From contig CAJXCD010000002.1 in assembly GCA_913051545.1 (NCBI GenBank), positions 1 to 64,000 of the forward strand: a stretch of DNA of 64,000 nucleotides, in the 5' to 3' direction. This document shows positions 6,266-9,429 of this stretch, piece after piece (positions within the stretch are counted from its first letter, which is position 1; each line of letters opens with the position of its first letter). The DNA comes from an uncultured Chloroflexota bacterium (lineage in GTDB: Bacteria > Chloroflexota > Dehalococcoidia > Lucifugimonadales > CAJXCD01). A program made the position numbers and the translations under genes. Below the pieces are notes generated by a model. That model was given only the letters and a program-made list of their open reading frames with translations. It made no database searches and was not told the DNA's origin.

Positions 6266-6281
6266 ATTATTTGATTAGTTT
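6254..6281. repeat. 28-bp direct repeat, right copy
   Basis: Matches 3527-3554 at 26 of 28 positions in the same orientation. It overlaps the last codons and stop of the collagen-like gene. The two copies bracket the 2.7-kb acyl-CoA synthetase and MaoC block. Confidence 0.8.
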
Positions 6282-7604
6282 CATTACTGTGTTGCTAATT
6301 AAGTGGGAAACCCAGATGTTTTGTCCATCGAATACTACTGAATTGGGACCATCATCTACTTGTATAGTTGACACTATTGCTCCGTTGTATGCCATCACCT
6401 TGGAGATCGTGTTATCAGCATAATTTGGTATCCACATATGTGTGCCATCGAAAGCCATCGTAAAAGGGGTTTTACCAATAGGTATTGTTGTCACAACACT
6501 ATTTCCTGATGACAAGATCTTAGAACTAGTACCATCTGTGTAATTTGCTACCCAGATGTGTTCACCGTCAAATGCCACTTCAGTGGGGTCATCACCTACG
6601 CTAATAGTAGCTAATATGGTATTGTCTGATGCTAAAATTTTGCTAACGGAATCATCAAATGTGTTTACAACCCAAATATGTTTTCCATCGAATGCAATAC
6701 CTCTAGGTCCTTGACCGACTTCAATTGTGGCTGTAATGGTACCGGTTTCTGCAGATATTTTTGACACTGTACCATCGGAATTATTTGTTACCCAAATATG
6801 AAATCCATCAAAGACCAATTTCCTCGGAGATTTTCCAACTGTAATCGTAGACACAACGCTTTCTTCAGTCGCAGATATTTTTGAGACGGAGTTGTCGTAG
6901 AAATTTGCAACCCAAATATAACTGCCGTCAAATGTTAGTCCCCTAGGTCCGTCACCTACTTTAATTGTAGCCGTAATTATTTCATCGTCTATAGATATTT
7001 TTGATACTGTGTCATCAACGGAATTAGAAACCCATATGTGTGTACCATCAAAGGCTAAGGTTCTTGGCTGATTACCAACTTCAATAGATGGGTAATAGGA
7101 ATGATCCCATCTAACCAAAGATATTCTTGTAGTGTCTACTGTAGCTTCGGCATCTTTTCCTGGTTCACCGTTTAGACCATCCGATCCGGCTGGGCCCAGC
7201 GGCCCTTGATCTCCCTGTGCACCTGCAGGACCTTGAGGTCCAGTGTAACCACGAGGTCCTTGTTCGCCTTGTGGGCCTTGGTTACCTTGTGGTCCCTGAT
7301 CCCCTTTAGGACCAGTACGACCTTCTGTTCCTGGTAGTCCAGAGTTTCCCGTTTTTCCAGATGGTCCTTGTGTGCCTGCAGGACCCTGGGCTCCAGTATA
7401 ACCACGAGGACCTGGTTTCCCATCGGCGCCTTGGTCACCCTGTAAACCTTGTATGCCCTGTGGGCCTCTATCTCCTTTAGGACCTTCAGGACCTATTTCC
7501 CCTTGAGGTCCTTCTTTAGGTGTAGAACACGAAGTCCACACAAGGACAAGTAAACATAAGAGGACTTTAAGAGTTGTATGTGAAAATGTATTACTGGCAA
7601 ACAT
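6267..7604 (-). CDS. Collagen-like seven-blade propeller lipoprotein
   Basis: 445 residues. Residues 1-26 are a signal peptide ending WTSC; the Cys could be lipidated, although Trp at -3 is atypical. Residues 32-151 are 40 uninterrupted Gly-X-Y triplets (DNA 7152-7511), rich in GPQ, GDQ and GPA, with GPRGYTG occurring twice. Residues 176-445 are seven repeats of exactly 40 residues with the consensus VGxxPxxxxFDGxxIWVxN followed by SKI, a YVTN-type beta-propeller. The last repeat is 30 residues, so the strand before residue 176 probably closes the ring. The likely role is a surface rod presenting a binding propeller; the ligand is unknown. There are no catalytic residues I can identify. Confidence 0.88.
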   Translation of the reverse strand: MFASNTFSHTTLKVLLCLLVLVWTSCSTPKEGPQGEIGPEGPKGDRGPQGIQGLQGDQGADGKPGPRGYTGAQGPAGTQGPSGKTGNSGLPGTEGRTGPKGDQGPQGNQGPQGEQGPRGYTGPQGPAGAQGDQGPLGPAGSDGLNGEPGKDAEATVDTTRISLVRWDHSYYPSIEVGNQPRTLAFDGTHIWVSNSVDDTVSKISIDDEIITATIKVGDGPRGLTFDGSYIWVANFYDNSVSKISATEESVVSTITVGKSPRKLVFDGFHIWVTNNSDGTVSKISAETGTITATIEVGQGPRGIAFDGKHIWVVNTFDDSVSKILASDNTILATISVGDDPTEVAFDGEHIWVANYTDGTSSKILSSGNSVVTTIPIGKTPFTMAFDGTHMWIPNYADNTISKVMAYNGAIVSTIQVDDGPNSVVFDGQNIWVSHLISNTVMKLIK

Positions 7605-7908
7605 ATAATTTCACTCTATAAATCAGAGGCCTCGTATAGGATGGAAATTAAATAAATATTAGAAAAACACAATGTTTTTATAAATTCTCTCATCGTATTA
7701 CACTTGTATCATCCAGGATGTTTTACTTACAAGACATATTCAGGGCTTAAACTAATAGATTATTTTTCAATTGCCTGAAATAAAAATAACGAAAAAATTG
7801 TATTTGCAGCACTTGTCGCGTAAATTAAAAGCAAAAGCAATGAGTTATCCAACTACAAAACACATATGTGCTGTTGATGGATAACGATTTTTTTGATAAT
7901 ATGTTCTA
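7605..7908. other. Divergent intergenic region, 304 bp
   Basis: An AT-rich gap between the divergently transcribed collagen-like gene and the inositol-phosphate synthase gene. The only structure I can support is the nested palindrome and promoter close to the right side. I find no ORF of note and no tRNA-like fold. Confidence 0.7.
7844..7900 (+). promoter_or_regulatory. Nested palindrome and promoter upstream of ino1
   Basis: GTTATCCA at 7844-7851 and TGGATAAC at 7878-7885 form a perfect 8-bp inverted repeat. It encloses the 10-bp palindrome CACATATGTG at 7861-7870. A GATAAT -10-like box sits at 7895-7900, with TGTTGA at 7872-7877 seventeen bases upstream, so the palindrome overlaps the -35 region. 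Initiation would fall at about 7907, two bases before the ATG, with no Shine-Dalgarno, so the mRNA may be leaderless. A binding site for the HTH domain of the gene product is an attractive but untested idea. Confidence 0.5.
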
Positions 7909-9429
7909 ATGAGTAAAAATGAAAATTATGCGGCAGAAATTATAAGGCGTTTTGGTGGCCAATCTGCACTGGGTGATCTAATAGGAAAGCGTCAGAGTAC
8001 GATTCAGCACTGGGTGAAGACTGGACGAATTCCTTCCCAGTGGCACTCTAGACTTATTGACTTAGCGAGGAAAAGGGGTATATCTCTTGAGGCAGGTGAT
8101 TTAGTGGATTCAATTATTCCAGATATAGAGCCGTCTGACGGTAAGCTTGGTATTTTGATAGTTGGTTTGGGGGCAGTCGCATCAACGTTCATAGCGGGGG
8201 TAGAGCATGTTCGCAGAGGTATGGGGCAGCCAGTCGGTTCCTTAACGCAGATGTCTACTATTAGGATAGGGAAGAGATCTCAAGATAACAGTCCTCTAAT
8301 TCGTGATTTTGTTCCTTTAGCAGGTCTTGATCAACTAGTTTTTGGTGCATGGGATCCTATACCTGATAATGCTTATCAGGCGGCCATAAAATGTGGTGTT
8401 CTTGATCAGCATTCAGATATAGAACCGATCGCTGATTTCTTGAAAGATATTAAACCTATGCCTGCTGTTTTTGACAACGAATATGTTCGTCGAATAGAAG
8501 GTACAAATACAAAACAATCACTCACAAAGCTTGAATTGGTAGATGCTGTTAGAGAAGACATACTGCGTTTTAAACAGGAAAATGGTTGCGACAGATTGGT
8601 TATGGTTTGGTGTGCTTCTACGGAAAAATTTATTGTAGAGTCTGAAGTACATAGAGATCTTGAGAGTTTTGTCGGTGGCCTGCACGATAATCATGAAAAC
8701 ATCTCACCATCTATGATATATGCCTATGCTGCTCTAATGGAAGGTATACCATTCGCAAATGGAGCGCCTAATTTGGCTGTTGATACGCCCGCACTTGAGA
8801 AATTAGCTAGAGATAATGGTGTTCCAATATGTGGTAAAGATTTCAAAACTGGTCAGACTTTAGTTAAGACCGTTATAGCACCAATGCTTAAAGCCAGAAT
8901 GTTGGGTCTGAGTGGGTGGTTTTCAACCAACATTTTAGGTAATCGTGATGGTGAGGTACTTGACGAGCCTGAAAACTTTAAGACTAAAGAAGAATCAAAG
9001 CTTGGTGTTCTTGAGTATATTTTGCAGCCGGAAAAATACCCAGATCTATACGGTGATGCGTACCATAAAGTTCGGATAAATTATTATCCCCCTAGAGGCG
9101 ATGACAAGGAAGGTTGGGATAACATTGATCTCTTTGGTTGGTTAGGTAGACGTATGCAGCTCAAGATAGATTTTCTATGTTCAGATTCTATATTGGCTGC
9201 CCCGTTAGTTTTAGACTTAGTATTATTTATGGATTTGGCTAAAAGATCGGGTATGTCGGGGATACAGGAGTGGTTATCTTTTTATTTCAAAAGTCCTCAG
9301 TATGCTGAAGGACTTTATCCGGAGCACGACTTATTTATACAACAAACTAAGCTAAAGAATACCCTTAGATGGCTTATGAATGAAGACCAAATTACACATC
9401 TGGGTATGGACTACTATCGTAGCGAATAA
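7909..9429 (+). CDS. Inositol-phosphate synthase with N-terminal HTH domain
   Basis: 506 residues. Residues 79-506 are a myo-inositol-1-phosphate synthase: NAD-binding VGLGAVAST at 85-93, GKDFKTGQTLVKT, a WFSTNILGNRDG segment equivalent to the family's N-H-L-G-N-N-D-G, and APLVLDLVLF near the C-terminus. It isomerises glucose-6-phosphate to inositol-1-phosphate. Residues about 8-58 are an extra Cro/YdaS-like HTH module (FGGQSALGDLIGKRQSTIQ, then HWVKTGRIP), resembling the carph-isopro domain. The fusion is in frame with no internal start favoured by a ribosome site. The upstream palindrome suggests autoregulation, by inference. Products could feed inositol phospholipids or solutes. Confidence 0.9.
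   Translation: MSKNENYAAEIIRRFGGQSALGDLIGKRQSTIQHWVKTGRIPSQWHSRLIDLARKRGISLEAGDLVDSIIPDIEPSDGKLGILIVGLGAVASTFIAGVEHVRRGMGQPVGSLTQMSTIRIGKRSQDNSPLIRDFVPLAGLDQLVFGAWDPIPDNAYQAAIKCGVLDQHSDIEPIADFLKDIKPMPAVFDNEYVRRIEGTNTKQSLTKLELVDAVREDILRFKQENGCDRLVMVWCASTEKFIVESEVHRDLESFVGGLHDNHENISPSMIYAYAALMEGIPFANGAPNLAVDTPALEKLARDNGVPICGKDFKTGQTLVKTVIAPMLKARMLGLSGWFSTNILGNRDGEVLDEPENFKTKEESKLGVLEYILQPEKYPDLYGDAYHKVRINYYPPRGDDKEGWDNIDLFGWLGRRMQLKIDFLCSDSILAAPLVLDLVLFMDLAKRSGMSGIQEWLSFYFKSPQYAEGLYPEHDLFIQQTKLKNTLRWLMNEDQITHLGMDYYRSE

Follow-up and report, generated by a model that had tools for sequence, protein, structure and literature searches.

A conserved palindrome in the promoter of HTH-fused ino1 suggests autogenous repression by an inositol-3-phosphate synthase in Chloroflexota

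The window analysed here, the whole 64-kb stretch of Chloroflexota DNA, carries ino1, whose predicted product joins a DNA-binding type helix-turn-helix (HTH) domain to an inositol-3-phosphate synthase. The features of the gene and of the 304-bp intergenic region before it are as follows.

7909-9429, + strand: ino1, HTH-fused inositol-3-phosphate synthase, 506 aa
7930-8088, + strand: carph-isopro HTH domain, apparently Cro-like (NF046037, 59.3 bits, cut-off 38)
8146-9369, + strand: myo-inositol-1-phosphate synthase domain (PF07994, E 2.6e-95, residues 80-487; PF01658, E 3.9e-32)
7844-7851, unstranded: left arm of an inverted repeat singled out in an earlier note; not conserved
7861-7870, unstranded: inner palindrome of the same note, CACATATGTG; not conserved
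7878-7885, unstranded: right arm of the inverted repeat; overlaps the -35 hexamer and the operator
7874-7879, + strand: -35 hexamer TTGATG; in orthologues, T at column -8 in 50/50 and G at column -6 in 46/50
7882-7898, + strand: predicted operator TAACGATTTTTTTGATA; 10/12 to the orthologue consensus, left half 6/6, right half 4/6
7897-7902, + strand: -10 hexamer TAATAT, 17-bp spacer; T at column +20, the last -10 base, in 50/50 orthologues
7908-7910, + strand: transcription start predicted from the -10 box, on the ATG or no more than about one base away

The synthase part is complete; both of its families score above their gathering scores (PF07994, 320 bits; PF01658, 111.1 bits), and the catalytic domain matches 7nwr, which we take to be a Bacteroides-type inositol-3-phosphate synthase, with an E-value of 8.9e-162 over residues 71-496. 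At the level of sequence, the predicted synthase keeps conserved blocks such as GKDFKTGQTLVKT. Its score for the mycothiol-type INO1 model TIGR03450 is 31.4 bits, far from the equivalog cut-off of 638. The gene has no other relative in its own genome, and no relative was found in the viral contigs searched. In 247 genomes of the order, all 34 carph-isopro domains above the cut-off lie in ino1. On the other side of the intergenic region, a divergent gene (6267-7604, - strand) encodes 445 aa in which, by eye, 'VANxxDxTVSKI' repeats come after a collagen-like Gly-X-Y stretch; its product is probably a secreted beta-propeller-like protein.

The predicted full-length fold was poor (mean pLDDT 67, with residues 312-429 poorly modelled), and the structure search was therefore made with a model of the HTH domain only. 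This 79-residue model (mean pLDDT 76.5) has the helix order of the five-helix Cro/CI type. In Foldseek, Cro proteins rank first, at an E-value of 0.035, and no match reaches 0.001; the top VIA-align row is 3bd1, with Z 7.6 over 62 residues at 2.3 Å, a Z below 8 not being decisive. The HTH sequence also matches 3bd1 (E 0.0013), and these weak but consistent structure rows, together with the sequence match, point to a Cro-like domain. HTH-bearing enzymes such as HppE, whose HTH has to our knowledge no proven DNA role, also occur among the VIA-align rows. An HTH within an enzyme thus proves nothing alone, and the argument for DNA binding has to come from an operator.

The earlier note had proposed autorepression by the fused HTH through a nested palindrome over the promoter. 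The palindrome is real: two 8-bp arms, GTTATCCA and TGGATAAC, are exact reverse complements and enclose the perfect 10-bp palindrome, with centres 1 bp apart. As described there, the structure overlaps the -35 hexamer, the right arm covering its last two bases; it also reaches four bases into the conserved operator described below. The window contains no second nested pair of this kind, against a chance expectation of 0.38 ± 0.66 (60 copies of the window simulated with a first-order Markov model). Within the 304-bp intergenic region, a nested pair arises with P = 0.014, some 8-bp repeat of this kind with P = 0.37 and some 10-bp palindrome with P = 0.52, so that statistical support is weak and near chance level.

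Conservation upstream of orthologues, the test named in the earlier note itself, went against this palindrome. Neither arms nor core have a copy in the 120 nt upstream of any of the 51 other HTH-ino1 orthologues (51/51), whose proteins are 71-79% identical and none of which comes from the genus or family of the window. A different palindrome is conserved there, at a fixed promoter position. Despite its promoter overlap and its intergenic P of 0.014, the nested palindrome (7844-7885) is rejected on conservation as the operator of the fused HTH, and we regard that reading as highly improbable. This case shows that a conspicuous palindrome at a promoter may mislead when its weaker-looking neighbour is the conserved site.

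Orthologues were drawn from two sources. In genomes of the same order, 203/250 gave some ino1 match, mostly of the distant mycothiol type; of 313 from public genomes, the best 80 were kept. From 110 loci, 20 duplicates and one locus with its N-terminus cut off were removed, leaving 52 genes with the HTH, 31 without it and 6 partial ones. TAACGA-N5-TCGTTA is common to the orthologue upstream regions, and we scored its best match out of 12 within 150 nt upstream. At least 10/12 is reached in 44/52 HTH-fused genes and 0/31 HTH-less ones, and at least 9/12 in 47/52 and 1/31, respectively; 26 HTH-fused genes have 12/12. Of the six genes with unclear N-termini, which were set aside, none reaches 10/12. 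The contrast gives a Fisher P of about 1e-15 ignoring phylogeny, by which it is confounded because most HTH-less controls come from other phyla; the one HTH-less control from the same order, an extra locus outside the discovery set, scores 7/12.

Eight of the 52 HTH-fused genes fall below 10/12: one (L028) has a 4-nt spacer and others carry TTGGTA as right half. L059, the single HTH-ino1 whose palindrome is clearly different, shows by eye a divergent, wider one, CTAACGG-N11-CCGTTAG, overlapping the usual place. Three loci outside the discovery set score 12/12, 12/12 and 9/12. The cultured Tepidiforma flava has a 12/12 site, and in one public metagenome-assembled genome the HTH-fused copy has a 12/12 site and the HTH-less copy none.

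The operator was also sought from the DNA alone, with a pattern made of the -35 T.G, the operator and the -10 T. In 400 genomes of the phylum, this pattern has 6 matches, all (6/6) preceding an HTH-fused ino1 by no more than about 70 bp. The exact operator occurs solely at ino1 in five contiguous genomes (G020, G024, G191, G194 and G196), and six genomes without HTH-ino1 contain no exact site. At ino1, the genome of the window and two others (G018, G164) have neither an exact nor a one-mismatch copy, as their variant right halves would lead one to expect. In a regulon search of 16 genomes, one-mismatch sites were in many of them no commoner than in a reversed-pattern control; in the genome of the window, relaxing the pattern yielded 3 exact matches and, with at most one mismatch, 36/44 strand matches against 55/61 for the control. 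No further targets are therefore claimed.

This distribution bears on the reading that another regulator binds the conserved palindrome, with a structural role for the HTH in the enzyme. Operator binding by Ino1 is a prediction, and some enzymes do contain an HTH, as the HppE rows illustrate. However, all six DNA-first matches accompany HTH-fused ino1, the operator occurs as one copy per genome and at no HTH-less ino1, and the recognition segment RQSTVQHWAxTGRIP of the HTH is strongly conserved. A separate regulator is therefore unlikely, and binding by the fused HTH itself is preferred.

In the window, the conserved site is a degenerate copy of TAACGA-N5-TCGTTA, a few bases from the nested palindrome. 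At local composition, P is 0.000355 for a score of at least 10/12 in any of the seven registers whose ends fall 8-14 nt upstream of the start. The degenerate right half, with 4/6, is a point against the autorepression model; it reads TTGATA here and TTGGTA, also altered, in four related SAR202-like loci (L002, L003, L005 and L007).

A second operator-like site, TAACGAAAAAATTGTAT, lies at 7787-7803, 95 bp before the main operator, with a weak score of 9/12; it is not significant as an auxiliary site, a score of at least 9/12 anywhere in the region having P = 0.16 by chance. A more distant Chloroflexota locus (L156) has tandem operators ahead of HTH-ino1, at distances of about 60 and 28 nt. Ino1 enzymes are tetramers, and two pairs of HTH domains could hold the conserved operator as primary site and either 7787-7803 or the left arm at 7844-7851 as auxiliary one. 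The 9/12 score and the tandem sites of that one distant relative would suit such an arrangement, but the chance level of the score and the lack of a consistent second site in orthologues make it improbable. Autorepression through the single conserved operator remains our preferred reading.

Aligned on the palindrome, the upstream regions of 50 of the 52 HTH-fused genes (L028 and L059 were left out) show random sequence, then T-T-G-A-C, the palindrome and T at +20. These columns are -35 and -10 boxes 17 bp apart with the operator between them. The operator columns of low-scoring rows carry a slight circularity, being best-match registers; the register was chosen independently of the -35 and -10 columns. 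In the window, likewise, the operator fills the 17-bp spacer and shares the first two bases of the -10 hexamer. A general promoter scan returned four other sites against 2.6 expected; the TTGATG/TAATAT pair is not listed because it falls below the threshold of that scan. An RNA hairpin formed by TAACGA-N5-TCGTTA is rejected on position, because the palindrome lies upstream of the predicted start, inside the promoter.

The -10 box proposed in the earlier note is borne out, with six bases between TAATAT and the ATG at 7909, which puts the predicted start at the initiation codon; its claim that no Shine-Dalgarno sequence precedes ino1 agrees with a crude score of 0. In 43/52 orthologues the start codon lies 10-14 nt after the operator, and initiation is therefore predicted at the start codon; in eight others the distance is 24-109 nt, and L059 has no clear site. 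A Shine-Dalgarno match of four or more bases is found in 9/43 short-gap genes against 7/8 genes with the longer distance, and several of the nine may be operator sequence. The distance from -10 box to ATG and the missing Shine-Dalgarno sequence support a leaderless ino1 transcript, as the note had suggested.

The place of the operator also bears on the sign of regulation. A protein bound between -35 and -10 usually excludes polymerase, and the site lies between these boxes and overlaps the -10. This argues against activation, even though the sign is not readable from sequence and IpsA activates ino1 in corynebacteria (PMC3899939). We judge activation to be very unlikely, and repression is the reading we retain.

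Sequence comparison thus shows the fusion of enzyme and HTH, and a predicted operator that has a set place in the promoter and is confined to HTH-fused ino1. On this basis it is very probable that ino1 is autogenously repressed from a leaderless promoter by its own Cro-like HTH, acting on TAACGA-N5-TCGTTA between -35 and -10. The N-terminal carph-isopro HTH would bind the 17-bp palindrome as a dimer and block RNA polymerase, so that the synthase would limit its own supply. We infer this binding, dimerisation and repressive sign, as well as a control of repression by an enzyme ligand, which may be substrate, NAD or an inositol phosphate; ino1 expression would then follow the demand for inositol lipid. 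The mechanism proposed in the earlier note is backed by the comparison and is probably right, and the operator it named is probably the wrong one.

The genome encodes one CDP-alcohol phosphatidyltransferase, nearest to archaetidylinositol-phosphate and phosphatidylinositol-phosphate synthases and below both cut-offs (160.4 of 180 and 134.5 of 170 bits, respectively), and two inositol-phosphatase family genes. The product of Ino1 therefore most likely enters inositol lipid.

In the same order, another family was noted, with an HTH_17/excisionase-type domain fused to mycothiol-type ino1 in three loci (790-2187, - strand, in L141; L142 and L143). In eight more (L144-L150 and L152), the gene just upstream of mycothiol-type ino1 encodes an HTH_17 protein, about 306-320 aa long. 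Like HTH-fused ino1, this family couples a DNA-binding domain to the enzyme, but the HTH is unrelated, the ino1 class is another and there is no TAACGA operator; it is an independent HTH-ino1 coupling. By eye, the HTH_17 genes of L144, L145, L147-L150 and L152 are preceded by repeated GGAA(T) words, often as direct repeats such as TTAGGAATAATTAGGA in L149, and it is possible that they form a direct-repeat operator. More tentatively, and with somewhat less than even confidence, the enzyme could be its own metabolite sensor: an active-site ligand would free the HTH from the one operator dedicated to it, and the supply of inositol-lipid precursor would be set with no separate regulator. Such coupling would then have evolved twice in Chloroflexota, with unrelated HTH domains on the two ino1 classes.

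Among solved structures, 7nwr resembles the catalytic domain of Ino1, but its match starts after query residue 70 and no counterpart of the HTH is aligned. The closest solved folds to the HTH are the Cro proteins of Xfaso 1 (3bd1), N15 (6on0) and P22 (1rzs), which bind short promoter palindromes as free-standing phage repressors, whereas the HTH of Ino1 is fused to an enzyme. A literature search found no paper on an HTH-fused inositol synthase, and a brief one on the carph-isopro HTH found nothing; this HTH family now gains a concrete predicted DNA target.

Control of ino1 through a palindrome is also known for IpsA of Corynebacterium, a LacI-type activator that responds to myo-inositol; IpsA is a separate protein of the LacI family with several targets (PMC3899939). 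Another parallel is PutA, a trifunctional proline dehydrogenase with a ribbon-helix-helix (RHH) domain, which represses its own gene and, like Ino1, carries an N-terminal DNA-binding domain on an enzyme (PMC5293562). HTH-fused Ino1 likewise unites the two functions in a single polypeptide and has a conserved operator in its own promoter. PutA differs in its RHH fold, its catabolic role, its put regulon and its membrane switch, Ino1 having a Cro-like HTH, a biosynthetic role and apparently one target (PMC5293562). Autogenously repressing enzymes are thus already known, and HTH-fused Ino1 probably adds a new member: an inositol-biosynthesis enzyme would join this short list in a mostly uncultured lineage, where the 12/12 site of the cultured Tepidiforma flava makes the model directly testable.
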